A DNA stretch of 64,000 bases from Magnolia sinica. Its lineage: Eukaryota; Streptophyta; Magnoliopsida; Magnoliales; Magnoliaceae. Below the pieces are notes generated by a model. The model was not told the origin of the DNA. It made no database searches and saw only the letters and a program-made list of their open reading frames with translations. The position numbers and the translations under genes were made by a program. The stretch's first letter is position 1, and every line of letters starts with the position of its first letter. The stretch lies in contig NC_080589.1 of NCBI RefSeq assembly GCF_029962835.1, forward strand, positions 19,427,586 through 19,491,585, read 5' to 3'. This document shows, piece after piece, positions 16,300-52,500 of this stretch.

Positions 16300-16720
16300 G
16301 GGCCTGTTTGGTCGGGTGGATTGGAAGGGATTGAATGGTATTAGGGTGGATGGCATGGATTTCAAGGTAATGATGGTGTTGTTAGTAGATTGTCTTAAGA
16401 TCCATGGGATTGCTATATCCCGGGATTACTATATCGAGTCTGTTTGGCACGCCCGGCCAATCTTAGGATTAAACCTTCTCATCCCTTCTAATCCGTCAAA
16501 TCAAACACGTCCCAGGAAAATTTGAACGGATTAGGGTGGATTGGATGGGATTTAAAGGTAATGATGGTGTTGTCAGTGGATTGTCTTAAGATCCATGGGC
16601 TTGCTATATCCGGGATTAGATCACCCAGCTTGTTTGGTACGCCCGGCCAATCCCAGGATTTACCTTCCAATCCCTTCAATACCATCCAATCCCTTCCAAT
16701 CCGCCCGGCCAAACGAGCCC
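16300..16720. mobile_element. Second dimeric Tourist-like MITE
   Basis: The element starts GGGCCTGTTTGG and ends CCAAACGAGCCC, flanked by TTA direct repeats (16297-16299 and 16721-16723). As in 4465-4873, the centre carries a fused internal terminus (AAACACGTCCCAGGAAAATT, about 16504-16523). The two halves are tandem copies sharing GGTAATGATGGTGTTGT and TTGTCTTAAGATCCATGGG. No transposase is encoded. Confidence 0.85.
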
Positions 16721-16723
16721 TTA

Positions 16724-17020
16724 GCTCTCTGTCACACCGCGACTCGCACTCGCGACATGATGCGGACGTGCGAAATGCAAAGTGCTCCACTAGCGCCTCT
16801 ACAACCACACTGCCTCACATGCCCACACCCTCGCACCGTGACAGTGATCGAGACCGCGATTGCGAGTATGTGCGTGGGTGTTCTAGTGCGAGATACTCCT
16901 CAGACTAAGTGGGTAAACATTACAATACTCCACCATTCTCATATATACTCAAAAGACTTCTTCTCTTTTTCCAATGTGGGACTATTCCCAAAACACTTAA
17001 AAATGGGTTTTTGCAAACTA

Positions 17021-21443: not shown

Positions 21444-21914
21444 TCCCACTTGGATGAGGGGTTAGGCCATTTTTTAGCCATATCCAAAACTTAGGTGGGC
21501 CCCACCAAGTACTTTTATAAGTTTTAGCCATGTCTTCACGTGTTTTTAGATGATATGGCCCACCTGAATTCCATATTAGCTGATTTTTAGGATATCCCAT
21601 AACCTAAAGGGGACCCATCAAATGCACGGTGTTGATGTTCAGCACACATCATGGTGGGGTCCACACAGCTCAACCTCATAGTACCATTTCCATATGTGTG
21701 TGTGTGTGTGTGTCTGTGTGTGTGTGGAGAACATCAACACCATGCATTTGATGGTCCCCTTTAGGTTATGGAATATGCCAAAAATCAGCCGTATACAGAA
21801 CTCAGGTAGGCCATAACATATGAAGACATGCCTAAAACATATAAAAGGACTTGGTGGGGCCCACCTGAGTTTTGGATGTGGCTGAAACTTGGTGTGACCC
21901 CTCATCTAAGTGGA
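21444..21914. repeat. Long inverted repeat (hairpin)
   Basis: Arm 1 (21444-21640) and arm 2 (21729-21914) are imperfect reverse complements over about 190 bp, from the outer TCCACTTGGATGAGGGGT-like end to the inner GTTGATGTTC / GAACATCAAC. The loop of about 88 bp contains a (TG)n tract. It looks like a foldback MITE. A transcript would form long double-stranded RNA. Confidence 0.85.
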
Positions 21915-27281: not shown

Positions 27282-27823
27282 TGTTGGGGACAAAAGATAC
27301 GGAGTTCGGAGACTCGGACTCTATGCCTCGGGTCGCCAAAGGATGTGTCAGATCCGAGGCATGGTTTACTGAACCGAGACAGAAGATGAGTCGGTTCGGA
27401 CAACACATCAGCGATCCGGGCATGCATCGGGCCGATCTTCTTGCCGGATCAGCTAGCGCAAGATAAAGCCTCATCCCGGATATCTTGGAAGAAGATCCCC
27501 GACCCCGAAGCTCATGGGATCGAATGAAGGCTGGAGATGGGCACGATCCTATCTCCGTGATACCAGGAGAGAATCCCGCGCATGATATCAGGAGGAGAAT
27601 CCTCGCACGATTGAATGCTCCAGCAGCTATAAAAGAGGAACCTCCATCGTCTCGGAGGATAAGGCAAAAATTCTATCTCAAAACCCCTTAATACGCTTAG
27701 ACCCAGAATCCAGGCCTGACTTTGGCATCGGAGGGTCCCCTGCTTAAGCCAGGGTCTCCTTTGTCCTCTTTTTGTGCAGGTATACGAAGGTCTAAGAGGG
27801 CGAACCAGATATTCGCATCAACA
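27282..27823 (+). repeat. 5' LTR
   Basis: 542 bp from TGTTGGGGACAAAAG to CGCATCAACA. A TATA box (TATAAAA, 27628-27634) is followed about 30 bp on by the probable transcription start, giving a U3 of about 375 bp. Confidence 0.95.
27628..27634 (+). promoter_or_regulatory. LTR TATA box
   Basis: TATAAAA in CAGCTATAAAAGAGG. The same box in the 3' LTR is at 36709-36715. Confidence 0.8.
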
Positions 27824-27826
27824 GTT

Positions 27827-27835
27827 TGGCGCCGT
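27827..27835 (+). other. Primer-binding site (tRNA-Asp type)
   Basis: TGGCGCCGT lies three bases after the 5' LTR and matches the complement of the 3' end of plant tRNA-Asp. The match weakens after nine bases, as is common in this lineage. Confidence 0.7.
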
Positions 27836-27884
27836 CTGTGGGAACCGTACAAAAAAGCCATCTCATACTTCTATATTGAGTTCC

Positions 27885-33215: not shown

Positions 33216-33389
33216 AAAGTATTTTCCAATACCAAGGAATTTGGATCGGGTACGTTGGGGCCCAATTGGGAAGGACCCTATATCGTCTCGGGCACCATCC
33301 GACCAGGAACGTATCGGCTAGAAGATCTAAACGGACAATCGTTGCCTCATCCTTGGAACGCTGAGCACCTCAAGATTTACTATCCTTAG

Positions 33390-33540
33390 TACTCAATGTT
33401 TAAAAACTCTGAACTAAGAAAGATTGAAGCCGAGTCAAATGAATAAAACTGAGCGTTTCCTTTCATTCATCAATCGCATGCGAGTACAACATGTGAGTAC
33501 ATCGAATTTAAAAAAAAAAAAAAAATACAAGGGGCCCTGG
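33390..33540. other. Convergent spacer between pol and antisense gene
   Basis: 150 bp between the end of the pol frame (plus) and the stop of the antisense gene (minus), with an A15 run at about 33511-33525. Transcripts from both sides would terminate here or overlap. Confidence 0.6.
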
Positions 33541-35880
33541 TTACTGTCCTCCGGTAGGAGCGGCACCCAAAGCGTTCTCGCATGTACCGGCCTCATCCCC
33601 AGCAGTGACTTCAGCAGCGGCGTCCGGATTCTCGGATTCTGAGGCTCCTCCTCCCTCGATTTCTGAGAGATCAAGGTCAGGAAAAGATTTCTTTATGTCT
33701 TTGACACATTCCAGATATCCGCTTTGGAACAAGCGATCCCTCTCATCCTCGAACTCCGCTGACTCAAGGAAAGCTTGGACGGCTTGGTCCCTAGCCTTCT
33801 CAGCCTCCCGAGTCTTCTCGTTGGCCTGCTGAATATGCTCCGCCGCCTCAAGCTTAGCCCGAGCCAAGTCATCTGCACAAGAAGCATGGGCTGCGAGAAC
33901 TCGTCGGTTCTCTTCTTCAGCTCTGGAAAGGAGAGCCGACACCCGAGCGACCTCGGCCTGCGCTTCATCAAGGGCTCTCTTGGAGAAAGCCGCCTCTGCT
34001 TTCGCGTCTTCGGCAGCTTTCCGGGCAAGGGCCGCCTCGCCTGTCAGAACGCCGACCCGAGTTTCGGCTTCCTCGCGTCGCCCTTCGGCCTCCGACAGAA
34101 GAGCCTGCAGCCGATGAGTCGAAGATAACTCTTTGCTGGCCTTAATCAAGCAGGGAGCGAGTTCAAAAAGCACCCTTGCTGCATGGCCGACGGTTTGCGA
34201 TGAAGGAGCGTTGTAGAGGCTGATGAACTCTTTTTCGCCCCCATGGGCTAAGGCCCAGGGAACCATCCCCGACACCACCTTCTGCAGGACGGACGGCCCT
34301 TCTTGGTTCGTTTCCTCCCCTCTGGAGGACGCAGTCCTCGTCTCTTCTTCCCCTCTGGAAGACGCAGCCCTAGCCTCTTCCTCCTGTCTCGGAACATCCG
34401 TCGCAACGTGTCCCGAGTCGGGTGCCGCCTGAGGTTCCGAGGCTGCGGCCACCGTCGCTTCCACCCTTTCTTCCGGGTCAGAAATTACGACGACAGAAGG
34501 GGCGGAAGAACTCGCAGGCTCCCTCTCCTTCCGCACCACTCTTTGCCTCTTCGGCGGCCGAGGCTCCGACAGAAGGACTGATCGCGGAGGAGCCTTTAAC
34601 TTCGTAACTGCCCTAAGAGGAGGACGAGCCCCAGTCATTTCCGAGGGAGCCGGTTCAGGAGCAATCCTAAGATTGGGTCGAGCTTCGGGCAAATCTAAAA
34701 ATAATAAAAAAAATGAAGTAAGTCAGGGAAAATTCAGAAGATGCATGAGGATACATTTTCAATTACCTGTGACGGCCGAGTCTAGACCTGCGAGATGAAG
34801 ACGCTCCGGCTGTAAAAGCACCTTCCAGGACCTATCTGCTGGATCCAACGCCCTCAACTCTTTGATCCGAGCTGAAGCACTGGAGCCGAGCTTTGGCCGC
34901 TTCTTCGGAATATCTGCCAGACACAAGAACGTCAGACTCAGAATATTATGAAAATAAAAAAAAAGGGGGCAAGGGAGAAGACCCAAGTCACCTGCTCTCT
35001 GGAACGCCCGAGGAACACGAGCCTCGCAGGGCTCGGACTCAGCCGTCTCCCAGCGACCACAGGCCCAAAACCAACGTTCTCTCCAATGTTTGTTGGAAGT
35101 GGGAGGGTCAGTTATTAGGGAGCCGCCTCCGCCCCGCCAAGCAGCGAAGACATAAAAGCCGGGGTAGTTCGGGTTCACGCGCACTTGGTACAAGTGGAGA
35201 AACTCGTCGACTGTTAGCAGTGGCTGTTCCATCTCAGCCCACAACACCGCACACCCGAATAAGTTCCTCCACCCGTTCGGAACTATTTGCCCCGGGGCAA
35301 TCTGAATACGAGATAAAACTCCCCGGACAATGGCCTGAAGGGGCAGACGCAAGCCGCATTGCATTGAGACTTGGTAGATCGCGACCGCCCCAGCAGGAGG
35401 ATGATCCGGCAAGTCATTTGGACGGGGGAGATAAGTGATAACCGATTCGGGGATATGATACCCGATTCGGATTCTGTCTAAATCCGCCTCAGTCAAAACT
35501 GAAGGAACCGGGCCGCTTAGATCATCCCCCGATCCTTCTCCTTCAGACTCGGCGTGTGCCGACTCATCAACAGGAACCGACCCAGAGGTTCCCTCGGCAA
35601 TCAACATTTCCTCTTCTTCCTCCTCTTCTTCCTCTATGCCCCTTGAAAAATTAGGCCTTCCCGGGCGGGTTAATAAAGACGACCCACCATGAGAAGGATC
35701 AACGGAAGTAGGGCGCTCCGCCGGAGCTTCAGTAACCCTCTCAGAAAGAAAAGCAGCGTTCGCATCAACTGCTATCTCTGTCAGTAAGGAAGGCGATTCC
35801 GCAACATTCCAAAAACGTTGCGCTTCGCCTTCATCTCCGGAAACTCCCTCCTGGGGACTTCGAGGGCCTCTAGCCGCCAT
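33541..35880 (-). CDS. Antisense three-exon gene of the Tat element
   Basis: On the minus strand: exon 1 35880-34992, exon 2 34913-34767, exon 3 34694-33541. Joined they give 2,190 bp, 729 residues. Introns: 34991-34914 (78 bp, GT...AG, in frame) and 34766-34695 (72 bp, GT...AG, ending in a T-rich tract), with correct phase at both joins. I chose ATG 35880 (MAARGPRSPQE); two codons upstream in the open frame are not ATG. Residues about 130-275 match the 'putative gypsy-type transposon' domain (Pfam Transposase_28): IPESVITYLPRPNDLPDHPP, QCGLRLPLQAIV, NYPGFYVFAAWRGG and NKHWRERWFWACG. The C-terminal exon is Pro/Glu-rich, has a basic PPKRQRVVRKEREP stretch (possible nuclear signal) and a long Ala/Glu-rich coiled coil. 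An acidic EEEEEEEEE run lies near residue 90. Function is unknown. Extra antisense genes are known in Tat elements. Confidence 0.85.
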
Positions 35881-36058
35881 TATCACTAAATAAAGAGGAA
35901 GGAGAGACTCACCGGAGGGAGAAAGGAAAACGGAAATGGCGAAAGGAGACGCTGGCAGTTAAGAGAGAGGAAAGGAAGAAGACGCAAGACCAAAAAAGCT
36001 CCGAAGGAAAAGCAAAGCGGGAATGGCAGTAGAAGTTCGAAATGCGGGACCCCCACCA

Positions 36059-36065
36059 TTTTATA
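36059..36065 (-). promoter_or_regulatory. TATA box of the antisense gene
   Basis: TATAAAA on the minus strand, in CTTATAAAATGG, 179 bp upstream of ATG 35880. A start about 30 bp downstream would give a leader of about 150 nt. This would be an internal promoter, independent of the LTR. Confidence 0.6.
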
Positions 36066-36340
36066 AGATTGCCATGTAGCGGAAGCAATTAATGGGGAAA
36101 TGATTCGACGCCTGCATCGACTCCCCCACTCGACACGTGGCGCACGTCTACTGACGACAATAATGCCCTTGCTACGTGTCCAACCCTCATTGGCGGGGTG
36201 AGCGATTTGACGGCTGACGGCGCATGCGATGTCAGAAACTGAACCGTCTCCCGTCAAAGGCGACACAGAATGCATTAAATGACTACTTATTGTCTCGGAC
36301 TTAATATCAAGACATTCAAAGTTTAAGCAAAGTACACCTT

Positions 36341-36355
36341 AAAAAACAATGGGGA
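36341..36355 (+). other. Candidate polypurine tract
   Basis: AAAAAACAATGGGGA, 7 bp before the 3' LTR, is the only purine-rich tract at the expected place for plus-strand priming. It contains pyrimidine interruptions. Confidence 0.5.
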
Positions 36356-36362
36356 TTGTACT

Positions 36363-36904
36363 TGTTGGGGACAAAAGATACGGAGTTCGGAGACTCGGAC
36401 TCTATGCCTCGGGTCGCCAAAGGATGTGTCAGATCCGAGGCATGGTTTACTGAACCGAGACAGAAGATGAGTCGGTTCGGACGACACATCAGCGATCCGG
36501 GCATGCATCGGGCCGATCTTCTTGCCGGATCAGCCAGCGCAAGATAAAGCCTCATCCCGGATATCTTGGGAGAAGATCCCCGACCCCGAAGCTCACGGGA
36601 TCGAATGAAGGCTGGAGATGGGCACGATCCTATCTCCGCGATACCAGGAGAGAATCCCGCGCATGATATCAGGAGGAGAATCCTCGCACGATTGAATGCT
36701 CCAGCAACTATAAAAGAGGAACCTCCATCGTCTCAGAGGGTAAGGCAAAAATTCTGTCTCAAAACCCCTCAATACGCTTAGACCCAGAATCCAGGCCTGA
36801 CTTTGGCATCGGAGGGTCCCCTGCTTAAGCCAGGGTCTCCTTTGTCCTCTTTTTGTGCAGGTACACGAAGGTCTAAGAGGGCGAACCAGATATTCGCATC
36901 AACA
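36363..36904 (+). repeat. 3' LTR
   Basis: 542 bp, same ends as the 5' LTR, TATAAAA at 36709-36715. It differs from the 5' LTR by 11 transitions and no indels. ACGTC follows at 36905-36909. Confidence 0.95.
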
Positions 36905-36909
36905 ACGTC

Positions 36910-37905
36910 CACCCTTAAAAACTTTCCTTAAAAACTTCTAAGGGCCCAGGAAGTTTTCGATCAAGCTAATATTTGTGTTTTCAAGTGATTTTAAACTTAT
37001 GAACATATTAGATATTAGATCTCGAGAAAACATCATGGCACACCTTATGAAGGTTTCAACGGTGAGCGTCACTCTCTTCCTGTTTTCTGTGGTGGGGTTC
37101 ACACCTGCTTTTGTATAATGCCATCAAATGATCTTCTCAAATGGATGGACGGTGTTCGATACAACACACACATCATTGTGAGCCTCACAGAACTTAGTGA
37201 CGTCACTTCACTAACGAGTCTCGATACTCAACCTGTCAGCAGCTAATCCGCGTGAGAAATTTACGACTGTGGACCCCACCTTTTATCCATTGGATATTCT
37301 TGAAACAATACAAACTTAGAATACGCAGTTGGACCTCCTCGTACGGACAACAAATTTCAGGACGAAAATACCCCTCCTTTTCACGGAAACCTCCTTTTCA
37401 CGGAAACGGATTGGGTACGCCTCCTGCCACCCGCCCAAGACGGATAGTCAGTGGTACGTGGGCCTCACCATGATGTTTGCTTTTCATCCATGCCGTCCAT
37501 ATATTTTTTGAGATCATTTTATGATATGAGACCAAAAATGAGGTATATCCAAGTCTCAAGTGTACCACATTACAGGAAACAGTGTTGAATGAGCGTCAAC
37601 CATTGGAAACTCAGGTGGAGCCCACTGTGATGTTTGTGAGAAATCCTCCCCATCTAAGTTCATTCATAGGGTCACAAAGACCTGGATGAAGAGGAAAAAC
37701 AAATTTCAGAATGATCAAAAACTTTTGTAACCCCTGAAAGGGTTTCAATGGTAGACGTTCAATTCCCCACTGCCTTTTACAGTGTGGTCCACTTGATAGC
37801 TAGATCTATTTTATTTTTCGTCTCAAGCCTTAATATGAGCTCGCCAAATAGATGAACGGTTTGGATATAACACAAACCTCATGATTGGACCCACACATGC
37901 AACAC
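36910..37905. repeat. GGGCCCAC-family copies right of the Tat element
   Basis: Partial copy about 36910-37205 (GGATGGACGGTGTTCG... then ACACACATCATTGTGAGCC) and a fuller one about 37445-37895 (GGCCTCACCATGATGTTTGC to CACAAACCTCATGATTGGAC). The first is part of the sequence interrupted by the retrotransposon. A tandem CTCCTTTTCACGGAAAC word occurs at 37374-37406. Confidence 0.55.
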
Positions 37906-37940
37906 ATTAAAAAAAAAAAAACCACTGACAGTCTGTGTGT

Positions 37941-37975
<35 letters not shown>

Positions 37976-38120
37976 GAGAACTTTTTCTCCCTTACATTTT
38001 TCTCTAATACATAATTATATAAATATGTATATATAAGTAAATAAAAATATTTTTTTATCTTTTAATTCATTTCTTTGTCCATGTATTCAACAAGCATATC
38101 TCCTAAATTAAAATGATTTG

Positions 38121-38238
38121 TTTTTTTTTTTACACACCCCCACACACTCACACTAGTGGAATTTTACCACCTATGGATACTCAAACGCTTGACCAGGTGT
38201 TGAAACTCCTAGGAGTCTACCACCTGAGGGAGAGTAAG
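38121..38238 (-). mobile_element. tRNA-derived SINE, minus copy
   Basis: Read on the minus strand: GGATCCTTACTCTCCCTC, an A-box-like CAGGTGGTAGACTC, a B-box-like GTTTGAGTATCC, then a GTGTGTGGGGGTGTGTA tail and an A11 tract (T-run at 38121 on plus). Flanks CTAAATTAAAATGAT (left) and CCAAACTAGAATGAT (right) look like decayed 15-bp target duplications. The family is the same as 49182-49323. Confidence 0.7.
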
Positions 38239-38582
38239 GATCCAAACTAGAATGATATGCTTAACGTACTATATATGATTTTGGGGTAGGAGAAGTTAAT
38301 TTAGCGGGGCAAGCATGAAATTCAGAGGGGCAAACATGAAATTCAGAGGGCAAGCCAATCCCTCAAACCAAACACGTCCCATGCAATTTTGAATGGATTA
38401 GGTTGGATTGGATGGGATTTAGAGGTAATGATGGTGTTGTCGGTGGATTGTCTTAAGATCCATGGGATTGGGATCAGATCACCGACTCTGTTTGGCACGC
38501 CAGGCCAATCCCAGGATTTGACTTTCAATCCCTTCCAATACCATCCAAGCCCTTCCAATCCGACCGGCCAAACGGGCCCTAA
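38213..38582 (+). repeat. 370-bp segment, partly repeated to the right
   Basis: GAGTCTACCACC...AGAGTAAGGATCC, the TTTTGGGGTAGGAGAAG block and the first minisatellite units recur at offset 370 from 38583. Nested inside is a partial Tourist-like MITE (about 38350-38579) consisting of the second half of the dimeric form. It starts internally at AAACCAAACACGTCCCATGC and ends GGCCAAACGGGCCC with TAA after it. Unequal exchange between the flanking repeats probably removed the MITE's left half. Confidence 0.65.
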
Positions 38583-38671
38583 GAGTCTACCACCCGAGGG
38601 AGAGTAAGGATCCAAACTAGAATGATATACTTAACGTACTATATATGATTTTGGGGTAGGAGAAGTTAATT

Positions 38672-39479
38672 AGCGGGGCAAGCATGAAATTCAGTGGGGC
38701 AAACATGAAATTCAACGGGGCAAACATGAAAATGAGAGGGCAAGCATGAAAATTAGCGAGGCAAACATGAAAATGAGAGGGCCAAACATGAAAATGAGCA
38801 AGGCAAGCATGAAAAAGAGCAGGGCAAACATGAAAAAGAGCGGGGTAAACTAGAAAATCAGTGGGGGAAACATGAAAAGCAGCGGGGCAAACTAGAAAAA
38901 CAGCGGGGCAAACTAAAATATGAGCGGGGCAAACTAGAAAATCAGCGGGGGAAACATGAAAATCAGCGGGGGAAACATGAAATGCAGCGGGGCAAACATG
39001 AAATGCAGCGGGGCAAATTAGAAAATCAGCGGGGGAAACATGAAAAGAAGCGGGGCAAACTAGAAAATCAGCGGGGGAAACATGAAAAGCAGCGGGGCAA
39101 ACTGAAACATGAGCGGGGCAAACTAGAAAAACAGCGGGGCAAACTAGAAAATCAGCGGGGGAAACATAAAAAGTAGCGGGGCAAACTAGAAAATCAGCGG
39201 GGGAAACATGAAAAGCAGCGGGAAAAACTGAAACATGAGCGGGGCAAACTAGAAAAACAGCGGGGGAAACATAAAAAGTAGCGGGGTAAACTAGAAAATC
39301 AGCGGGGGAAACATGAAAAGCAGCGGGGCAAACTAGAAAAACAGCGGGGCAAACTGAAATATGAGTGGGGCAAACTAGAAAATCAGCGGGGGAAACATGA
39401 AACGCAGCGGGGCAAACTGAAATATGAGCGGGGCAAACTAGAAAATTAGCGGAGGAAACATGAAAAGCAGCGGGGCAAA
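38672..39479 (+). repeat. 21-bp minisatellite array, 38 units
   Basis: Thirty-eight head-to-tail units, 37 of exactly 21 bp and one of 20, beginning AGCGGGG. Three main variants: AGCGGGG + CAAACTAGAAAAWC, AGCGGGG + GAAACATGAAAAGC, and AGCGGGG + CAAACTGAAAYATG. The AAACTAGAAAATC variant is usually followed by the GAAACATG variant, giving a 42-bp higher-order dimer. As 21 is a multiple of 3, frames stay open by chance and produce a 305-codon minus-strand ORF that I do not regard as a gene. Confidence 0.92.
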
Positions 39480-40204
39480 TAGATTGAGTGTGGATTGTTT
39501 GTGTAGAACGTACACTAGTGACGTTGGGTCTCATTTGTCCATGTCATTTTCAAGGACTCAAGCTAACAAGATATGTCGGATTTCTCTCTCCCAAATAGAT
39601 TACGTTCTATGCTACATGACTTTTTAAAGGGGTAGTCCTATATTTTAGCTTGGTTTTTTAAAGAAAAAAAATGAAGTTCTTTATGATGAATAATCACGTA
39701 TATAATTAATAAAATCATAGATACAAAAAATAAATCCTATATTGAAATATAATAAACTAATATAATAATGAAAATATTAGCATGCATACACCCGACCAAC
39801 CCAATCAACCCATCGAGCCCTCTTGTGTTGGGCTTGGGTTGAGAATTCCTAACCCAAGATTGGGTTGGGTTAGGTCAAGGTTTAGGTATAGGAACCTTGG
39901 GTTGGGTTAGGGTTGAGCACCAACCCAAACCAACCGGCCTGACTTTCAGCCCTAATTTCATGTTTGCCTTACTCAATTTCATATTTTACCCGCTAAATTT
40001 CTAGTTATCCCCACTCAATTTCATGTTTGCCTCACTTAATTTCATGTTTGCCCCGTTGAATTTTCAGTTTGACCACGAAGTAATTGAAATTGACCACAAA
40101 CTGAATGAAATGGATTTTTGACCATCGACCAGATGGAATCTTGGAAAATAACTAGGTTGGTTGGCTAAATTAGCTTCTCCTACTCCAAAATCATATGTGG
40201 TATG
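39480..40204 (-). repeat. Conserved interior block of the foldback family
   Basis: The reverse complement of this block recurs at about 42800-43470 and 44810-45500. It includes GATTGAGTGTGGATTGTTTG, a TCATTATAAAGAAC-type region, an AACCCAACCC/GGGTTGGG-rich core (39800-39950) and GGTCGAAAATC. A short inverted run of 21-bp units (GTTTGCC...CTC) lies at about 39957-40080. No coding capacity. Confidence 0.7.
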
Positions 40205-40322
40205 TTAAGTAAATCATTCTAGTTTAGGAGATATGCTTGTTAAATAAATAGACAAAGAAATGAATTGAAAGATAGAAAAATATTTTTATATACTTATATA
40301 TACATATTTACTTAATTATATA

Positions 40323-40640
40323 GCCCACTATGCAGTATGTGTGAAACCACCTCCATCTATTAGGTCAAAACACTTACTTTCACCATTAGCTATAGGGTCC
40401 CACTGACCCTAATTCACTAGCTTCTTTTTCTTTTTCTTTTTTCGTTATAATTCCTACGGCATTTTGTGGGTCCCATTATAAGGTACGTGTTATATCCAAA
40501 CCGTCCATCTATTTGACGAGCTCGTATTAAGGCTTGAGACGAAAAATAAGACAGATCTAGCTATCACCTAGATCCATAGCTCAACTGGCAGACTGAGTGA
40601 AAATACCTCGTTTCAACACTTGAGGTCTTGGTATCGATCC
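40323..40640 (+). other. GGGCCCAC-type fragment and tRNA-like sequence
   Basis: About 40460-40560 is a fragment of the dispersed family. At 40573-40584 TAGCTCAACTGG resembles a Pol III A box, and GGTATCGATCC at about 40630 resembles a B box, with CGTTTCAACACTTGAGG between. This is tRNA/SINE-like, but it does not fold as a clean tRNA by eye. It directly abuts the next minisatellite array. Confidence 0.4.
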
Positions 40641-40644
40641 TAAG

Positions 40645-41034
40645 AGCGGGGCAAGCATGAAAAAGAGTGGGGCAAACATAAAAATGAGCAAGGTAAGCAT
40701 GAAATATGAGCGGGGCAAACTAGAAAAACAGCGGAGCAAACTGAAGTATGAGCGGGGCAAACTAAAAAAACAGCGGGGCAAACTAGAAAAGCAGTGAGAG
40801 AAACATGAAAAACAGCGGGGCAAACTAGAAAAACAGCGGGGAAAACATGAAAAACAGTGGGGGAAACATGAAAAACAGTGAGGCAAAGTAGAAAAACAGC
40901 GGGGGAAACATGAAAAATAACGAGGGAAACATGAAAAACAGTGGGGGAAACATGAAAAACAGCGGGACAAACTAGAAAAACAGCGGGGGAAACATGAAAA
41001 ACAGCGGGAAAAACATGAAAAATAGCGGGGCATG
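40645..41034 (+). repeat. 21-bp minisatellite array (about 18 units)
   Basis: Same family as 38672-39479, dominated by CTAGAAAAAC and CATGAAAAAC variants. The array ends in a perfect hairpin: arms 40999-41022 and 41035-41058 (24 bp each, AAACAGCGGGAAAAACATGA start) around a 12-base loop, where the array flips orientation. Confidence 0.9.
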
Positions 41035-41143
41035 TTTTTCATGTTTTTCCCGCTGTTTACATGTGGAATGTAGATTTTTATGTTTCCCATTTTTTTCCTC
41101 TCTTAATCATATGATTTACTCAGAGGTTAAGGACTAGCTGCTT

Positions 41144-41270
41144 TTCATGTTTTTCCCACTGTTTTTCTAGTTTACCCCGCTCATACTTCAGTTTGCCCGC
41201 TATTTTTATGTTTGCCCCACTCATATTTCGGTTTGCCTCGCTATTTTTCTAGTTTGCTCCGCTATTTTTC
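41144..41270 (-). repeat. 21-bp minisatellite, inverted, about 6 units
   Basis: Reverse-complement units (TTTTCTAGTTTGCCCCGC type) with length slips. It ends at CACGGAAATACCCCTC, a junction word also found at 37376-37400. Confidence 0.8.
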
Positions 41271-41329
41271 ACGGAAATACCCCTCATTTTCACATAAACG
41301 GATTGGGTACTCCTCCGCCACCCGCCAAT

Positions 41330-42240
41330 GGTGGATCGTCCGTCTCATGGGCCCCATCATGATGTATGATTTTCATCCATGCCGTCCATATATTTTTCCA
41401 AATCATTTTATGGTATGATACCAAAAATGAGGTATATCCAAATCTCAACTATACCACATTACAGGAAACAGTGTTGAATGAGCGTCAACCATTAGAAACT
41501 CAGGTGGGGCCAACTGTGATGTTTGTGAGAAACCCGATAAAACTTAGGTTAGGCTTGGGTTGAGGTCTCAGGTTATCCGACCTAACCCGAACTCGATCAA
41601 TATATTAGTTACTTATAAATTATAATTGAGTGTGGATTGTTTGTGTAGAAGGTACACTAGTGATGTCGGGTCTCATTTGTCCACGTCATTTCCAAGGGAT
41701 CACACCATGGGAAATAATGGGCATAATGATTTCCACCGTTGAAACCATAATGGGCCCAATAGTGATGTTTGTTTGTTATCAAACATATTCATAAGATCAT
41801 ATAGACATGGATTAATAGAAAAAACAATTATAAGCTTGATCCAAAACTTCTATAGCCCCCAAGAAATGATCAACAATAGAAGTTCAATTAAAAATTTCAT
41901 TTCGTGTGGTCCATTTGAACATTGAATAAGTTTAGATTTATCGGCTTAAGCAATGAAAAAATCTGTTAAGTTCGCCATGCTGATTGTCTAGTTTGCCCCA
42001 TTGAATTTCATGCTTGCCCTGCTCAATTTCATGTTTGGATTTTCTCTTTCCAACTATCCTTATAAACTTCGTGTGTTGGATAGGTTCTGACGACCTTGAC
42101 CCAAACCCTAGGTTGAAGCATTTAATCGGGTTTTCTCTTTCCAAATATCCGTAAAAATGTTATACATATGTTATATTTGAGGATTATATAAATATGCAAA
42201 CCCACTGATGTGTATTGTGTTCGACGAAATACCTATGTGG
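41330..42240. repeat. GGGCCCAC copies and foldback-block fragments
   Basis: Partial dispersed-family copies at about 41340-41540 and 41700-41935, separated by a reverse fragment of the foldback interior (41540-41690, ending GAGTGTGGATTGTTTGTGTA then CACTAGTGATGTCGGGTC). Three inverted 21-bp units lie at about 41985-42035. Confidence 0.55.
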
Positions 42241-42381
42241 GCCTAATAATAACATTACTTGCTAAGTATGGTTGACAAAATGAGTTCAAACTTGGTTTTG
42301 CTAAGTGAGGTTGACAAAAAAGAAAAATGCCATCAGGATTATTGTGAAGGAAAAAAACTAAAAACACAACTATTGTAACCT

Positions 42382-42530
42382 GACCCGGTCGACCCCATCT
42401 GGCTGTAATGGCCATTGACCCGGTCGACCCCAACTCACTGTTTTGACCTGACCCGGTCGACCGGGTAGACCCGGTCGACCCCATCTGGCTGTAATGGCCA
42501 TTGACCCGGTCGACCGGGTCAGAGCTTGGC
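42382..42530. repeat. Duplicated segment with perfect palindromes
   Basis: The segment starting GACCCGGTCGACC and continuing CATCTGGCTGTAATGGCC occurs at 42382 and again at 42468 (offset 86). TGACCCGGTCGACCGGGTCA at 42502-42521 is a perfect 20-bp palindrome, and 42451-42466 holds its 16-bp core again. They sit immediately outside the left inverted end of the large foldback element. Confidence 0.9.
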
Positions 42531-42770
42531 CTATCGCTACGGATTATAACCGTAGCCATAACTATAGTGCTATGCACTTTTTTTTCTATTTTCTCTTTTT
42601 TTTTTTCTTTTTTTTTTTTTTACATGGAGAACATTTTCCCCCTTACATTTTTCTATAATACATAATTATGTAAATATGTATATATAAGTACATAAAAATA
42701 TTTTTCTATCTTTTAATTCATTTCTTTGTCTATTTATTTAACAAGCATATCTCCTAAACTAGAGTGATTT

Positions 42771-43480
42771 ACTTAACTTACCGCATAGGATTTTGGGGTA
42801 GGAGAAGCTAATTTAGCCAACCAACCTAGTTATTTTCCAAGATTCCATTGGGTTGATGGTCGAAAATCTATTTAATTCATTTCGTGGTCAATTTCAATCA
42901 CTTCGCGGTCGGGTTGGATCGAGTTGAAAGTCGAGTGGGTTGGTTCGGGTTAGTGCTCAACCCTAACCCAACCCAACCCAATCTTGGGTTGGAAATTCTC
43001 AACCCAAACCCAACCCAAGAGGGCTCGACAAGTTGATTGGGTTGGTCGGGTATATATGTGCTAATATTTTTGTTATTACATTAATTTATTATATTTCAAT
43101 ATAGGACTTATTTTTTGTATCTATGATTTTATTAATTATATACGTGATTATTCATCATAAAGAACTTCATTTTTTTCTTTTAAAAACTAAGCTAAAATAT
43201 AGGACTACTCCTTTAAAAAGTCATGTAGCATAGCACGCAATCTATTTGGGAGAGAGAAATCCGGCATATATTGTTAGTGTGAGTCCTTGGAAATGACTTG
43301 GACAAATGAGACCCGACATCACTAGCGTACCTTCTACACAAACAATCCACACTCAATTATAATTTATAAGTAACTAATATATTGATCGGGTTCGGGTTGG
43401 GTCGGGCAACCTGAGACCTCAACCCAAGCCCAACGTAAGTTTTATCGGGTTGGTGTTTGTATAGCCCTTCACGTAGGTAG
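42771..43480 (+). repeat. Conserved interior block, copy B
   Basis: Contains GGTAGGAGAAGCTAATTTAG, GTCGAAAATC, an AACCCAACCC-rich core, and CACACTCAATTATAATTTAT, in the same order as 44770-45510 and inverted relative to 39480-40204. Confidence 0.75.
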
Positions 43481-43550
43481 CCCTTCGCACATGTAGGTAG
43501 CCCTTCACATGTCATTAAGGGCCCTTTTTACTATGTAAAGCATCCAAATT

Positions 43551-43858
43551 GCGGGGCAAACTAGAAAAACAGCGGGCAAACTTAAGTATGAGCGGGGCAA
43601 ACTAGAAAAATAGTGGGGCAAACTTAAGTATAAGCGGATCAAACTAGAAAAACAGCGGGGCAAACTGAATTATGAGCGGGGCAAACTAGAAAAATAGCAA
43701 GGCAAACTAGAGAAACAGCGGAGCAAACTGAATTATGAGCGGGGCAAACTAGAAAAACAGCGGGGTAAACTGCATTATGAGCGGGGCAAACTAGAAAAAC
43801 AGCGGGGCAAACTGAATTATGAGCGGGGCAAACTACATTATGAGCGGGGCAAACTACT
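43551..43858 (+). repeat. 21-bp minisatellite array (about 14 units)
   Basis: Alternates CTAGAAAAAC and CTGAATTATG/CTTAAGTATG variants, giving a 42-bp pattern different from that in 38672-39479. Confidence 0.88.
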
Positions 43859-43861
43859 AGA

Positions 43862-44640
43862 CCCTGTCATTAAAGGATTCTGGTTAAAAAAATAACACAA
43901 ATATTTTTTATGAGACATCTATTTAGTGGGCTCTAGATAGAAGGCTATAAACAAAGACTGTGTAGACATTTGTCAGTAAGAAGGGAAAGTGATGGCTAGG
44001 ATTTTCGGATCCTCGTGATTTTTGAACCATGGACCATCCATGGAAGAGAGAGTGGACAGTCTCAATCCACTGTCTTCCCTCCCACGTGTACGGTGGAGGG
44101 TACTGTATTGTACTATGATAGAGCCGACTCTACCGGCAACTGAAAAAAGAAATGCTTGTGGCGATTCACGAGAGGAGAGAGAAGATATCAACGTCAGCAC
44201 GCTTGGCGGCATGGCACACGTGTGAGAGATCTGTTCCAACCGTCCATTTTCATCGTACATGCGTGGCCCACTTAGTAGACTGGGCCTAAGTAATGAGTCC
44301 GAAATTTTTTAGGTTTACCCATCTATTCATGGACGCCTATATCCTACACAAGAGTCGAGTTTCACGTGTGTTGTGATTCACGTTTTAAATCTTTTCACGC
44401 CTATATCCAACCCCCTCGCTACCTTGATGCATGTGTTGTATATTCACGCCATTCGTTTAAGGGCTGTTTAGATTTATGTATGAGATTGTTTTACATTGTC
44501 TTTTTATTAGGACAAGGTATTCATAAATACAGTTTTATACTATCTAGGCTGTAAATCTATATAGGTCCTTAACTTGCTGACTCATTTTAGCTCAAGAACT
44601 TAAAAATTAAAAACATCCAAACTCATTAAAAACTTTCAAA
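43862..44640. other. Unassigned DNA within element II
   Basis: Non-repetitive insert between minisatellite and the next interior block. I recognise no gene. TGGACCATCCATGG-type short palindromes occur near 44030. Confidence 0.35.
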
Positions 44641-44644
44641 GGCT

Positions 44645-45600
44645 CACTATGTTATATATTTTATATCTAAATATGTATATATAAGTATATAAAAATATTT
44701 TTCTATCTTTTAATTCATTTCTTTATCTATTTATTTAACAAGCATATCTCCTAAATTAGAATGATTTACTTAAGTTACCATATATAATTTTGGGTAGGAG
44801 ATGCTAATTTAGCCAACCAACCTAGTTATTTTCCAAGATTCCATCGGGTTGATGATCGAAAATCTTATTTCATTTAGTTCATGGTCAATTCCAATCACTT
44901 CGCGGTCGGGTTGGTTCGAGTTGAAAGTCGGGTGGGTTAGTTCGGGTTGGTGCTCAACCCTAACCCAACCCAAGTTTCCTATACCTAAACCTTGACCCAA
45001 CTCAACCCAATCTTGGGTTGGGAATTCTCAACCCAAGCCCAACCCAAGAGGGCTCGACGGGTTGATTGGGTTGGTCGGGTGTATACGTGCTAATATTTTC
45101 GTTATTACATTAGTTTATTATATTTCAATATAGGACTTATTTTTTGTATCTATACTTTTATTAATTATATACGTGATTATTCATCATAAAGAACTTCATT
45201 TTTTCCTTTTAAAAACCAAGCTAAAATATGGGACTACTCCTTTAAAAAGTCATGTAACATAGCACGCAATCTATTTTGGAGAGAGAACTCCGGCATTTCT
45301 TGTTAGCGCGAGTCCTTGGAAATGACGTGGATAAATGAGACCCGACATCACTAGTGTACCTTCTACATAAACAATCCACACTCAATTATAATTTATAAGT
45401 AACTAATATATTGATCGGGTTCGAGTTGGGTCGGGCAACCTGAGACCTCAACCCAAGCCCAGCCTAAGTTTTATCGGGTTGGTGTTTGTATAGCCCAAGC
45501 TTGAGATCGGACCCGATATATCCTGCCCGAGCCCAACCCAATGTCGGGTCGGTCACGGGTCGGTCGGGTTGAACCCGCCCAACTTTCAGCCGTACATGAA
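44645..45600 (+). repeat. Conserved interior block, copy C
   Basis: Begins with the AT-rich terminal-type sequence (ATATGTATATATAAGTATAT), then the block described for copy B, and extends further through TATAGCCCAAGCTTGAGATC and a GGGTCGGTCACGGGTCGGTC GC-rich tract. Confidence 0.75.
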
Positions 45601-45603
45601 CTT

Positions 45604-46579
45604 GAGCGGAGGAAATTAGAAAATCAGCGGGGCAACTAGAAAATCAGCGGGGCAAATTAGGAAATTAGCGGGGCAAACTAAAAAATTACCTGGACAAACT
45701 AGAAAATCAGCGGGGCAAACTAGAAAATCAGCGAGGCAAACTAGGAAATCAGCGAGGAAAACTAGAAAATCAACGGGGCAAACTATAAAATCAGCGAGGC
45801 AAACTAGAAAATCAGCGGGAGAAACTAGAAAATCAGTGGGGCAAACATGAATTTGAGCAGGGCAAACTAGAAAATCGATGGGGCAAACTAGAATATCAGC
45901 GGGGTAAACTAATAAATCAGCAAGGCAAACTAGAAAATTAGCTGGGCAAACTAGGAAATCGGCAGGGCAAACATGAAATTCAGCGGGGCAAACTAGACAA
46001 TTAGCGGGGCAAACTTAACAGATAATTTTATGGCTTGAGCCGATAAATCTAAACGTATCCAATCTTCAAATGGACCACACTCATTTTCATATTTGCCCCG
46101 CTCATTTTAATGTTTGCCCAGCTCTTTTTCATGCTTGCCCCGCTCTTTTTCATGTTTGCCCCGCACTTTTTCATGCTTGCCCCGCTCATAATTCAGTTTG
46201 TCCCGCTGTTTTTATAGTTTGCCCTGCTCATACTTAAGTTTACCCCACTGTTTTTCTAATTTGCCCCGCTCATAATTCAGTTTCCCCCGCTGTTTTTCTA
46301 GTTTGCCCCTCTCATAATTCAGTTTTCCCCGCTGTTTTTCTAATTTGCCCCACTCATAATTCAGTTTCCTCCGCTGTTTTTCTAGTTTGTCCCGCTGTTT
46401 TTCTAGTTTGCCCCGCTCATAATTCAGTTTGCCCTGCTCATACTTAAGTTTGCCCCACTATTTTTCTAGTTTGCCCCGCTCATATTTGATTTGCCCATTT
46501 GTTTTTAAGTTTGTCTCGCTCATATTTCAGTTTAATTACAGATTTAAAGAACCCATTGTTTTTCTAGTTTGCCCCGCTC
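45604..46579. repeat. Head-to-head 21-bp minisatellite arrays
   Basis: Plus-orientation units fill 45604-46018 and minus-orientation units fill about 46078-46579, separated by about 60 bp. The pair forms a near-kilobase foldback. Left units are mostly CTAGAAAATC type; right units are mostly the complements of CTAGAAAAAC and CTGAATTATG types, so the two arms expanded independently. Confidence 0.88.
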
Positions 46580-46880
46580 GGGTGGTAGACTCTTAGGAGT
46601 TTCAACACCCGGTCAAGTGTTCGAGTATCCGTAGGTGGTGAAATATGTATATATAAGTGTATAAAAATATTTTCCTATCTTTTAATTCATTTCTTTGTCT
46701 ATTTATTTAACAAGCATATCTCCTAAATTAGAATGATTTACTTAACTTACCACATAAGATTTTAGGGGTAGGAGTAGCTAATTTAGCCAACCAACCTAGT
46801 TATTTTCCAAGATTCCATCGGGTCGATGGTCGAAAATCCATTTCATTTAGTTTGTGGTCAATTTCAATCACTTCGCTGTT
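46580..46880 (+). repeat. SINE fragment joined to foldback terminal block
   Basis: About 46580-46643 is the SINE head and B-box part (CGGGTGGTAGACTCTTAGG ... GTTCGAGTATCCG), cut off and fused to ATATGTATATATAAGTGTAT and on to GGTCGATGGTCGAAAATCC. Confidence 0.65.
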
Positions 46881-47325
46881 AAACTAGAAATTTGGTGGGG
46901 CAAACATGAACTTGAGTGAGGCAAACATGAAATTGAGCGGGGCAAACTAGACATTCGACGGGGCAAACATGAAATTGAGCAAGGCAAACATGAAATTAGG
47001 GCTGAAAGTCGGGCGAGTTAGTTCGCGTTGGTGCTCAACCTTAACCCAACCCAAGGTTCCTATACCTAAACCTTGACCCAACCCAACCCAAGGTTCCCAT
47101 ACCTAAATCAGCGGGGCAAATTAGAATATTAGCGGGGGATACTAGAAAATCAGCGGGGGAAACATGAAAATCAGCGGGAGAAACTGGAAAATCAGCGGGG
47201 CAAACTAGAAAATCAGCGGGGCAAACTAGAAAATCAGCGGGGGATACTAGAAAATCAGCGGGGCAAACTACAAAATCAGCGGGGGAAATTGAAAAATCAT
47301 CGGGGCAAACTAGAAAATCAGTGAA
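46880..47325 (+). repeat. Two short 21-bp arrays
   Basis: About six units at 46885-47000 (ATGAAATTGAGC types) and about ten at 47107-47325 (AAAATCAGCGGGG types), separated by an AACCCAACCC-rich piece of the interior block. Confidence 0.82.
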
Positions 47326-47746
47326 ATAGGTAGTCCTTTCCTTATATATTAAATGTTGGTATACACGTGAAATAGGTAGTGTCCTTATCATGTGTATGAG
47401 TTGTACTGTAGTGAAAAGAGTACAAACTATAGTGTTTGACTATCCACTTTGTTGGTGTCCTTGTACAATGGTTTGATTACAGTGGTCCACATCTTTGTAC
47501 AGAATGCATAGTTTTTAATTTTCACAAGTGGGAGACATTTTTGGGTGATGCAGAACAATTCATTGGTCAGTTGACTTCCACTGAGGATGTATCAAGGCAC
47601 AAAGCGACATATATTCACTATAAAAGAATAAAATTACAGGAGATAGAGATTACCCGATTCGAACAAGTTTTGAATCACCTAAGCTATAAGCTTGAAACCC
47701 TACGAACGAATTAGAAAGCTCTTGATACCCCATATTCTTGATCACA
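47326..47746. other. Unassigned DNA
   Basis: No recognised gene. A 92-codon open frame at 47436-47714 has no in-frame ATG start near its beginning and no familiar motif. Confidence 0.3.
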
Positions 47747-47831
<85 letters not shown>

Positions 47832-47850
47832 TATACATACATATACATGG
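47747..47850. repeat. (AT)n-(AC)n microsatellite
   Basis: Long uninterrupted AT repeat to about 47819, then ACACACAC and ATACAT repeats. Confidence 0.95.
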
Positions 47851-48250
47851 CATCTAGGTGAATCACAATCGAAATAGGAAATAAATCCCGCACGATCGTT
47901 CGATGAAACATTCGATGACACTTCGATGGCATCGAACATCTTCGATGTTATCAAACTAACCAAAATGATCTAGCGACTAAACATGTATTTTTCAAATTTT
48001 CTCGATGAGACTTTGATGTCATCGACGGTTTGTCGATGGCATTGAACCTTTTTTAATAGCTTTGAGTAGGACACCAAAATTGTCCAGTAACAAATCGTGA
48101 GATTTTCATATTTTAGTTAGTATTGCACTAAAAAAGAAAAGAAAATGGGCTTTATTGTTACACACTGTCAGCATGGCGATTCATATGTAAGTGTAATAAT
48201 TATATATGACACAGGCAAATAGCAAAATTGTGTTTACAAAAATGACGATT
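47851..48250. other. DNA rich in TCGATG/CATCGA words
   Basis: Between 47890 and 48050 TCGATG, CATCGA and close variants recur many times (for example CTTCGATGGCATCGAACATC). No gene was recognised. The pattern may be a decayed local repeat. Confidence 0.4.
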
Positions 48251-48251
48251 C

Positions 48252-48676
48252 ATATGCTTGACCCGCTCATTTTCATGCTTGACCCACTCATTTTCATGCT
48301 TGCCCCGCTGATTTTCATGTTTGTCGCGCTGATTTTCTAGTTTGTCCCGCTCATATTTCAGTTTGCCCCGCTGATTTTCTAGTTTGCCCCGCTCATTTTC
48401 TTGCTTGCCCCACTCATTTTCATGTTTTCCCCACTGATTTTCTAGTTTCCCCCGCTCATTTTCATGTTTCCCCCGCTCATTTTCTTGTTTCCCCCGCTCA
48501 TTTTCATTTTTCACTGCTAATTTTCTAGTTTGCCCCGCTCATATTTCAGTTTGCCTCACTCATACTTCAGTTTGCCCCGTTGTTTTTCTAGTTTGTTCCG
48601 CTGTTTTTCTAGTTTGTCCCGCTTATATTTCAGTTTGCCCCGCTCATTTTCATGCTTGCCCCGTTAATTTTCATGG
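48252..48676 (-). repeat. 21-bp minisatellite array, inverted (about 20 units)
   Basis: Complement units (TTTTCTAGTTTGCCCCGCTC and variants). It includes the CTCATTTTCATG variant found mainly here. Confidence 0.88.
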
Positions 48677-49166
48677 GTAATTTCGTCATGTATAAACAAC
48701 ATAGTTTCCTTGTTTGGATGAAACTTTTGTTTTGGAGTTTTTGGGGTCTGAATCTTTCTTTCTGCTCCCAATTGAAATAGGGTTTGAGAACACAAAAAAT
48801 GACGTGTTCACAGCTTTTACTCGTAATCTTCATATGGTTAACTCTACGTGATAATCTCATAATCACTTTCATGACAAACTACATAAATAATTGTGTTCTT
48901 TAATTTTCTTCATTGCTTTCACATTTTTAATTAACCGTATGATTGTGAGTTCATAATGGTTTCCTACCTATTCAAATAAACATGAAAATCAAAGCCAACA
49001 GTAAAACTTGGAGAGGAATGATATGATCGTTGACAAGATAATATGAATAGTACTCTTGGGTCTTGAGTTTATTCAACTGTGATGCATAATTTGGTGATCC
49101 AGGCCAGTCGTCTAATGGGTCGTACCATGAATTAAATTTTTTCCAAAATTTTCCCTGTAAGTAAAT
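48677..49166. other. Unassigned DNA right of the last array
   Basis: AT-rich, no recognised gene or element until the SINE target-site repeat at 49167. Confidence 0.35.
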
Positions 49167-49181
49167 CATTCTAGTTTAGGA

Positions 49182-49323
49182 TTCTTACTCTTGCTCGGGT
49201 GGTAGACTCTTATGAGTTTCAACACCCAGTCAAGCATTTGAGTATCCATACGTGGTGAAATTCCTCAAGTGTGAGTGCATGGGGGTGTGTGTGCATGTGT
49301 AAAAAAAAAAAAGAAAAAAAAAA
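49182..49323 (+). mobile_element. tRNA-derived SINE with target duplication
   Basis: Starts TTCTTACTCTTGCTCGGGTG. Pol III A-box-like GCTCGGGTGGTAGACTC and B-box-like ATTTGAGTATCC are spaced as in tRNA-derived SINEs, followed by a GGGGGTGTGTGTGCATGTGT tail and an A-rich tract. A perfect 15-bp direct repeat CATTCTAGTTTAGGA flanks it (49167-49181 and 49324-49338). It carries no coding sequence and would depend on LINE machinery. Confidence 0.85.
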
Positions 49324-49599
49324 CATTCTAGTTTAGGAAATATGCTTGTTAAATAAATAGGCAAAGAAATGAATTAAAAGATAGAAAAATATTTTTATAT
49401 ACTTATATATACATATTTACATAATTATGTATTAGAGAAAAATGTAAGGGAGAAGAAGTTCTTCATGTAAAAAATAAAAATAAAATAAAAAATAAAATAA
49501 AAAAGAGAAAAAGGTGCATAGCATAACAGTTATGGCTACGGTTATAATCCGTAGCCATAGTCCGGGTCCCAACCCGATCGACCCAAACTCACTGGCTCC

Positions 49600-52500
49600 T
49601 TTTTTTTTCTTTCTTCCCCATTTTAATCCCCACCGATTTTTGTGGGTCCCATTATGAGGTATGTGTTATATCAAAACCGTCCATCTATTTGGAGAACTCG
49701 TATTAATACTTGAGATGAAAAATAAGACAAATCTAGCTGTCAAGTGGACCACACTGTAAATGGCAGTGGGTAATTGAACGTCTACCATTGAAACCCATTT
49801 AGGGGTTACAAAAGTTTTGGATCATTATGAAATTTGTTTTTCCAGTTCATCCAGGTCTTTGTGACCCTATGAATGAACTTAGATGGGGAGGATTTCTCAC
49901 AAACATCACAGTGGGCCCCACCTGAGTTCCCATCGCCCGGACTGTCGTCAGCGCTCGTCTCTGCACGCCAGCCAGGGGAAGACAGGGGTATTTTCGTCCT
50001 CAAAGTTGGTGGCCGTACGAGGAGGTCCAAGTGCGTATTCAAAGTTTGTATTGCTTCAAAAAAACCACTGGATAAAAGGTGGGGTCCACAGTCGTAAATT
50101 TCTCAATCCGCGTCCGTCGGATAGAGAACGGATTGGATTGGCTACTCCCCCTCCCACTGGCCAATGGCTAGTAGTCAGTGCTTTATGGGCCCCACCATGA
50201 TGTATGTGTTTCATCCATGCCGTCGATATATTTTTTTAAATCATTTTATGATATGATCCAAAAAATGAGATATATCCCAAACTCAAGTGGACCACATTAC
50301 AGGAAACAGTGTTGAATGAACGTAGACCATTAAGAACTTTTTGGGGCATAAAAGTTTTGAATCAAGCTGATATTTGTTTTTTCCCTTCATCTAGGTCTGT
50401 ATGACCTAATCAACAGATTGGATGTCAAATAAAAAGTACAGTGGGCCTTAGGAGTATTTTAATGGTGGATATCCAATCACTTTTGTTTCCCTGTGGTGGA
50501 TGTTGTACGCGTCGAGCACACTAATTTAAACTAAACCGACTTTGGAATCCACCGTATCTAAGTCCCATTCGTTAAATAAACCTTTCGCAGGAAGTTCCTG
50601 CGCTGGGATCATAGGTGGGGCCCACCGTGATGTTTGTCAGGAATCCACTCCGTTCATCCCTTTTTTGAGATCATTTCAGAACATAAGACCAAAAGTGAGC
50701 AGGATCCAAGGCTTAAGTGGGTCGTATTAAAGGAAAAGGTAGTTAGGTAAATTCCTACCGTTGAAACCTCTCTGAGTTTGACAGTGATGTTTACATGACA
50801 TCCATACCGTTAATAACGTCATTCCTGCTGGGATGAGGCCCCACGAATATTTCAACTGTAGAGCATTGGATACGGTTCATTTTTAGCCTCATGTCCTGAA
50901 ATGAACTTACAAAACGGATGGACGGGGAGGATTTCGTACAAACATCTCAATAGTTCCCACATGGGTTCCCAGCGCAGGAACTTCCTGCGAAAATCCGCGT
51001 CCCAAATCATATTCGTACCACTAAAATCTGTAAGTTATAGACTTACAGTCAACATAGTTGCATTGGGACGCTTAGACTCTCTAGTCCATTGATATAGACC
51101 GCTCGTTACGTCCAGCACACATTTAGTGGGTTACCGATCAAACACCACACTGATCGGACAAATATAACCGTTTGATCGATAGCTCCTAATATGGATGGTC
51201 AAGATCATTCACACAAAATAGATCCACTAACTAATTTGATCCGTCTATCTGTTGAGATTCATCATGGAGTAACTATGAGTCTAAAGAATCACTTAAGAAA
51301 TTGTAACCATCCAATCCATGGTTTGGAAAATGGATGGCTATAAAAATAAGGACAAATCAACTGTAGATCGGACAACCTGATCCGTGCGATCTATCGAGTT
51401 CTGGACTCAAGGGACAGTGATCTATCGAGTTACTGTCTAAGTGAACTAATGCCAGCTCTGTGAAGCCCACCTTGTTGTACACGTAAATCCACTCCGTCCA
51501 TCAGGTGAGAACCCTTATTTAAACGGTCATATAGAAGGCTTCGATAGTCTACACCAGTGGTAACAATGGATATGGCTGATTTTTTTTTTCTTCAGTACTT
51601 AGAAACGAGAATAAAATCTGATGGACGGAATGGATTTTACATATGCAAGTGATGGGCCCCACAGTATGGCACAGCCCTGGTAGAGTATTCAGTCCGTCTG
51701 GTTTTATTCTGTGTGGAGGTAACCATGGTGTGCATATTTCATCAAACCCGTTAAAAATATTTAAATCACTGCAATTAATCCAATACAGAAAATTCAGCCT
51801 GATCCAAAACTTAAGTGGGCCACGCAGCATGAACTTCATAGTTTTAGGTGTATTTTTACATTTTTTTGATAGGTGCCCTACAGGAACCTTTTTTCAGGCT
51901 AATACTTTGTTTGTACGGTTAAAATCGTTTTTTCCATCTGATGGACGGATTGGATTTACATATAAGCATGGTAGGCCCGTGAAAGAGTGGGTACTTAACG
52001 TGCGAGTCTCGCAGAGGATTTTAGACCCTTTTGGCAGGAACACTAGTTATCTCGAGTTTTTGTAACACAAAGTTATGTGGGGCCCATCGCGATGTCCGAG
52101 TGAAATCCACTCCGTCCATCAGTTTCCCCTGCTAATTTTAGTAAGACGGCCAAAAATGAGGATCCATTACTGCAGTGGGGCCCACCGCGGGAAACAAGGG
52201 ACGGAAACGCTCACCATTGAAACCTTTTTGGGCTTCCCACGTGATGTTTATATGCCATCTAATCCGTTGACGAGATGATTCACACCAGGACGAACGAAAA
52301 AAAACAAATATCAGCTTGATACAAATCTCATGTGGGCCCCAAGAAGGTTTAAATGGTGGGCGTTCAATCCCCAATGTTTCTTATACTGTGGCCCACTTGA
52401 GTCTTTGGATTCTCCTCACTTTTTGGATCTCATCCCAAAATAAGCTACCCAACCTAATGGACGAGTGGATTTCACGCGTTCATGAGGATGGCCCCACAGA

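Follow-up and report, generated by a model that had tools for sequence, protein, structure and literature searches.

We analysed a 64,000-nucleotide stretch of Magnolia sinica DNA (RefSeq assembly GCF_029962835.1, contig NC_080589.1, positions 19,427,586 to 19,491,585 of the forward strand), hereafter called the window and numbered from its first letter, in which a 21-bp repeat forms tandem arrays inside a pair of long inverted arms. The whole structure occupies 37254–50104 (12,851 bp, no strand assigned) and is a probable Mutator-type foldback element, with exact inverted termini of 36 bp, arms of ~1 kb and a flanking 9-bp direct repeat. An earlier note, made from the letters alone, had described a foldback complex at 37909–49560; its arrays do lie inside one element, but the limits it gave were too narrow.

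Termini, arms and arrays of the element

The first 36 bp inward from 37254 and from 50104 were identical as inverted termini. Directly outside both lay a perfect direct repeat of exactly 9 bp, AATCCGCGT, whose left (37245–37253) and right (50105–50113) copies, both on the plus strand, abut the termini as a putative target-site duplication. Identical 9-mers were found at two random window positions in 16 of 400,000 draws. The terminal 22-mer (≤3 mismatches) matched the window twice, at the two ends of the element, and at the same threshold was found in none of the inner arm copies described below. An alignment between the left flank and the reverse-complemented right flank revealed the inverted outer arms, at 37254–38302 on the plus strand and 49158–50104 on the minus strand, with identities of 91.7, 91.4 and 89.0% over three aligned blocks.

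Target-site duplications of the Mutator superfamily (Mutator-like elements, MULEs) measure 8–11 bp, typically 9 bp; terminal inverted repeats are long in most plant MULEs, and MULE families are mobilised by a MULE-type transposase from autonomous members. Here, a 9-bp duplication, AATCCGCGT, was seen at one locus together with terminal inverted repeats of 36 bp (exact) and arms of ~1 kb, and it is the combination of inverted termini and duplication that leads to the Mutator-type assignment. Long inverted arms, the hallmark of foldback elements, were evident from alignment for the outer arms and from folding for facing inner arrays. The foldback nature claimed in the earlier note was thus upheld and sharpened to Mutator-type; its plural 'elements' found no such backing, as the terminal 22-mer occurs only twice.

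A looser scan restricted to 38–49 kb, from which four strays (41073, 41503, 44304 and 46024) were removed, gave 163 units of the 21-bp repeat in 12 clusters and both orientations between 38303 and 48665. Ten clusters held at least five units (39, 21, 20, 19, 18, 15, 10, 7, 5 and 5) and two were pairs, which bears out the claim of nine or more arrays of one unit in both orientations; all ten larger arrays fell within the same pair of inverted ends, a check that had been proposed beforehand. The 168 hits of a whole-window 21-mer scan comprised 163 in these clusters and five isolated ones (28743, 32118, 52113, 52144 and 53779), against 3, 2 and 1 in three shuffles. At ≤1 mismatch, AGCGGGGCAAAC had 110 matches, all in 38303–48644, where shuffles would lead one to expect 0.34, and neither whole-window scan (AGCGGGGCAAAC or 21-mer) revealed an array in the remainder of the window.

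From left to right, two units end the left arm (38303–38344, +) and a 39-unit array with a degenerate last unit follows at 38672–39489 (+). Next come a 5-unit array within the inner arm copy C2 (39953–40057, −), an 18-unit array (40645–41023, +) facing a broken 7-unit array (41034–41263, −), the pair folding as a hairpin, and a further two units (41982–42023, −). The 15-unit array at 43550–43863 (+) is followed by a 20-unit array (45605–46023, +) facing one of 21 units (46082–46578, −), with which the 15-unit array has its variant order in common. A 5-unit array within the inner copy C5 (46894–46998, +), at the place corresponding to that of the C2 array, precedes 10 units at 47110–47319 (+) and, on the right side, 19 units at 48247–48665 (−), 492 bp inward of the right arm.

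The 163 units included 128 distinct sequences, which varied mainly at positions 8, 13–15 and 20–21, with AA at positions 9–10 almost invariant. The near-constant part comprised about 12 bases, AGCGGGGCAAAC, which corrects the earlier division into a constant AGCGGGG and a 14-base variable half. Exactly 21 bp separated neighbouring units in 142 of 151 within-cluster intervals, the remaining nine being 19, 20 (three), 22, 40, 41, 58 and 106; the largest array contained a single 20-bp step, as had been noticed before. No description of this unit was found in the literature searched, most subscription papers lying outside its reach. Neither a 19-mer compared with prokaryote contigs nor an 18-mer compared with viral contigs gave a match, as expected for plant DNA. 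The string GCGGGGCAAAC appears in six papers, which by title deal with bacteria, with a fungus and its viruses, and with a cuttlefish.

With the arrays masked, five inner copies of arm segments (C2–C5 and C7; the outer arm parts being C1 and C6) were located in both orientations, all of them without the terminal sequence. Copy C2 (39483–40591, −) consists of a core (39483–40322) followed by part of the outer arm, again with no terminus, and C7 (41531–41697, −) is a partial core. Copy C3 (42508–43467, +) joins the end of an outer-arm segment (42508–42591) to a core (42653–43467) that is related to the core copies C4 (44664–45496, +; 94% identity in a global alignment with C3) and C5 (46641–47091, +).

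The left outer arm is interrupted by a B-like repeat fragment (37376–37603) and carries a short interspersed element (SINE)-like insert at ~38120–38246. The right arm has this insert at the matching place and C2–C5 lack it at that site, so the outer arms appear to have a more recent common ancestor; a fragment of the same insert adjoins the array ending at 46578. It is presumably SINE-like, a label that we took from A/B-box-like patterns and from a tail and flanking duplication judged by eye, and ARAGORN found no tRNA gene. A short tRNA-like segment (40567–40644), named for its resemblance to A/B boxes and unlike the outer-arm insert, is joined directly to the array at 40645; here too, ARAGORN detected no tRNA. 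Beyond the left arm lies an insert resembling a miniature inverted-repeat transposable element (38355–38584, no strand assigned; labelled by eye), with related copies near 4460 and at 16331–16724; after this insert, the end of the arm that precedes it is present a second time (38208–38301 and 38578–38671, 97% identical). Sequence around GACCCGGTCGACC is locally duplicated in tandem at 42378–42519, with TRF periods of 35 and 51 and no relation to the 21-bp repeat.

Array order, substitutions and folding

Unit order was aligned for all 45 pairs of arrays and scored against 300 permuted orders per pair. The 43550 (+) and 46082 (−) arrays scored 23 vs 9.3 (z 6.8), a value reached by 0 of 300 permutations, and in both of them the variants TAGAAAAAC and TGAATTATG alternate. 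Judged by this common order and the same alternating variants, the two arrays probably descend from one array that was copied in inverted orientation. The other pairs gave no clear order signal, several pairs of short arrays being uninformative because their permutations did not vary, and pairing arrays by mean unit mismatch yielded no clear pairs; this lack of signal allows for either separate growth or fast turnover. The proposal that each array had expanded separately therefore fails for one pair and is left undecided for the other 44.

The reference for counting private substitutions was a set of 19 variant forms chosen by hand, and units that showed >7 differences were skipped. The arrays contained 252 such substitutions and nine off-length intervals, and 11 comparisons between cores or arms showed 10 to 49 substitutions and 0 to 3 gaps each. 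Since indels are also scarce in the neighbouring copies, the constancy of the unit length needs no special constraint, and we rejected a special rigidity of that length, which did not differ clearly from its surroundings as judged without a formal test. The suggestion that 21 bp, as two helical turns, keeps the GGGG block on one face of the DNA consequently gained no evidence and stays an arithmetical argument; nor was evidence found for a link with 21-nt small RNAs, and the length of Dicer products is not known to be set by a 21-bp repeat unit.

Among the 252 private substitutions, 147 were G>A or C>T, 36 of the 163 units had TG or CA in place of the unit's CpG, and transitions predominated in most core comparisons too. 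Such a predominance of C>T and G>A would be expected of methylated, silenced DNA. Folded as RNA, the facing arrays at 45605–46578 reached z −24, and folded as DNA those at 40645–41271 reached z −17 (20 shuffles each); a read-through transcript of facing arrays would form a hairpin and be a likely source of small interfering RNA.

Pfam searches of 10 stop-free segments gave only matches below the cut-off (best OST-HTH, E 0.0087), and a captured gene or transposase was rejected as an explanation. A known structured RNA was rejected likewise, as all nine Rfam matches were to microRNA families under their gathering scores and fell on an AT repeat and a hairpin.

A long terminal repeat (LTR) retrotransposon at 27282–36904 adjoins the element; its LTRs (27282–27823 and 36363–36904) are 98% identical, and its long frame encodes a 1813-aa gag-pol protein with gag, reverse transcriptase, RNase H and integrase domains, alongside minus-strand open reading frames of which one matches Pfam PF04195 (putative gypsy type transposon). 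Short palindromic, foldback-like repeats lie at 8499–9035, 21446–21913 and 26266–27039, and relatives of the first are scattered across the window and resemble the inner part of the outer arms (~64–67%).

Origin of the element and alternative explanations

We conclude with good confidence that the region represents a single transposon of the Mutator superfamily, non-autonomous, in decay and of foldback architecture. In the history that we propose, the element would have been inserted in one piece by a transposase made elsewhere that recognised its termini. The arrays would have expanded and contracted through slippage and through unequal or template-switching repair, and inverted copies of arm segments together with their arrays would have arisen in the course of repair or through capture, which would have left arrays at the junctions of the arms. 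The DNA of the element would later have been methylated and have decayed through C-to-T change.

Several observations weigh against this conclusion. The window holds five copies of the duplicated 9-mer AATCCGCGT vs 0.35 expected (at 26665, 27168, 37245, 50105 and 50992; four of these, 50105 included, are followed by CC on their own strand), which may be a motif that recurs at repeat ends and serves as an insertion target. The flanks beyond the duplication are also alike: their local alignments score 48 (direct) and 37 (inverted), where none of 50 shuffles exceeded 27. This likeness comes from related dispersed repeats in both flanks, and the element was probably inserted into such a repeat. 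A recurring motif in related flanks makes its presence at both ends less improbable than it would be in random DNA, and mobility is argued from a single putative target duplication in the one copy known. Furthermore, identity between the outer arms (89.0–91.7%) does not exceed that among the inner core copies (91.3–93.9%), so recent homogenisation of the arms does not follow from their likeness. For the outer arrays at 38672 and 48247, the observed order score was reached in 25 of 300 permutations; the left arm is adjoined directly by an array, and the 492 bp that separate the right arm from its array match nothing else in the window. Finally, a Pfam scan of the six frames of the element, with X at stops, found no transposase domain, which may simply fit a non-autonomous copy; the matches that the scan did return were to PF21300, in two of the frames, and to FBF1 (E 0.017).

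An alternative that overlaps with this conclusion, which concerns the outer element, is that several foldback elements, independent but of one family, inserted into one another, the inner ones then losing their ends. Such nested insertions would account for several arm copies in both orientations, and divergence among the core copies is indeed similar to that between the outer arms. However, the terminal sequence is present at the outer ends only and no inner copy has an end, while the 5-unit arrays at corresponding places in C2 and C5 and the common order of the 43550 and 46082 arrays are also explained by internal copying. We consider nested insertion possible but on balance unlikely.

A second proposal, compatible with a Mutator-type foldback element, is that the units are putative transposase-binding sites that selection kept while the element was active. 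The near invariance of AA at positions 9–10 is in its favour, but no transposase was found in this copy and the constancy of the unit length needs no selection; we hold it tentatively, as a minority possibility. That the arrays aided transposase binding during the active life of the element may be the case, hypothetically.

It is very unlikely that the region is a minisatellite locus, or a local inverted segmental duplication, with no transposon involved. Arrays and inverted copies are indeed confined to one place in the window, the 9-bp motif recurs and the flanks are related repeats, but an exact 9-bp direct repeat abutting exact inverted ends of 36 bp is not readily explained by a random match (16 of 400,000 draws).

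That the repeat is coding, its 21 bp forming seven codons of a heptad-repeat protein, is scarcely credible: an uninterrupted 305-aa frame does cross the largest array on the minus strand and two translated frames matched the grass antifreeze repeat PF21300 (E 1e-15 and 1.4e-4), but none of the six frames showed a synonymous excess, the plus frame RGKLENQ had 25 stop-making changes vs 17.1 expected, and the spread of conservation over codon phases was unremarkable (p = 0.26). Order-permuted controls matched PF21300 in two of nine cases (E 0.14 and 0.0047) and a native 63-aa stretch of one array did not match it up to E 1, so that seven-residue periodicity most likely explains the match, and we rejected a coding origin.

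Within the Mutator-type foldback element, the fact that arm segments adjoin arrays of one unit could mean that in this plant transposon the 21-bp arrays act as hubs of recombination, at which arms are repeatedly re-joined in either orientation. We regard this as rather doubtful; if true, multi-arm elements would be built in this way and new minisatellite loci might be seeded. The locus offers a dissected case that combines a Mutator-type element with a minisatellite and with inverted duplication of arms, and the common SINE-like insertion and common unit order provide markers for the order of events. Other copies, should they exist, would show whether the arrays drive the shuffling of arms or serve transposition.

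Comparison with known systems

Elements of this kind have already been described: arms with tandem repeats are known from Tm1, Tetris and Galileo, and extra inner arms from plant MULEs. Tm1 of root-knot nematodes, which has tandem-repeat arms and 9-bp duplications, was termed Mutator/Foldback (PMC3169594). As in our element, its inverted arms are composite and contain a short tandem motif in varying number, its target duplications are mostly of 9 bp, and its members are mostly non-autonomous (PMC3169594). Compared by description, Tm1 differs in its motif of ~14 bp, in having asymmetric terminal motifs of 7 bp that lie outside its inverted repeat, and in its animal host.

MULEs with multiple terminal inverted repeats have been reported from tomato, Arabidopsis, rice and maize (PMC3310237). 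These resemble the Magnolia element in having extra arm copies within one element and in being mostly non-autonomous, and in tomato the target duplication is likewise found only at the outer ends, with none recognisable at the internal arms (PMC3310237). They mostly contain one extra pair or a solo arm, whereas here there are five inner segment copies in both orientations, several of them adjoining arrays. MULEs with a foldback structure are also represented by the MuTAnT elements of Medicago (PMC4486113).

Tetris of Drosophila virilis, a foldback element with internal tandem repeats, was placed in Mutator by its 8–10-bp duplications, and shares with our element the foldback form, internal tandem repeats, rearranged modules and the lack of a found transposase (PMC4079207). 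By description, it differs in its insect host and in that its internal repeats seeded a satellite DNA (PMC4079207). Galileo of Drosophila, in which transposase-binding sites lie in tandem repeats within long arms, has similar foldback-like long inverted ends with tandem repeats; unlike here, its transposase belongs to the P-element superfamily and its binding sites have been demonstrated (PMC3688188). According to the Galileo authors, whether the tandem repeats of Foldback and Phantom elements are bound had yet to be tested (PMC3688188). Among plants, FARE of Arabidopsis, said to contain a MULE-domain transposase (PMC3169594), and Tnr8 of rice are foldback elements, as is the Magnolia element, which we liken to them by description.

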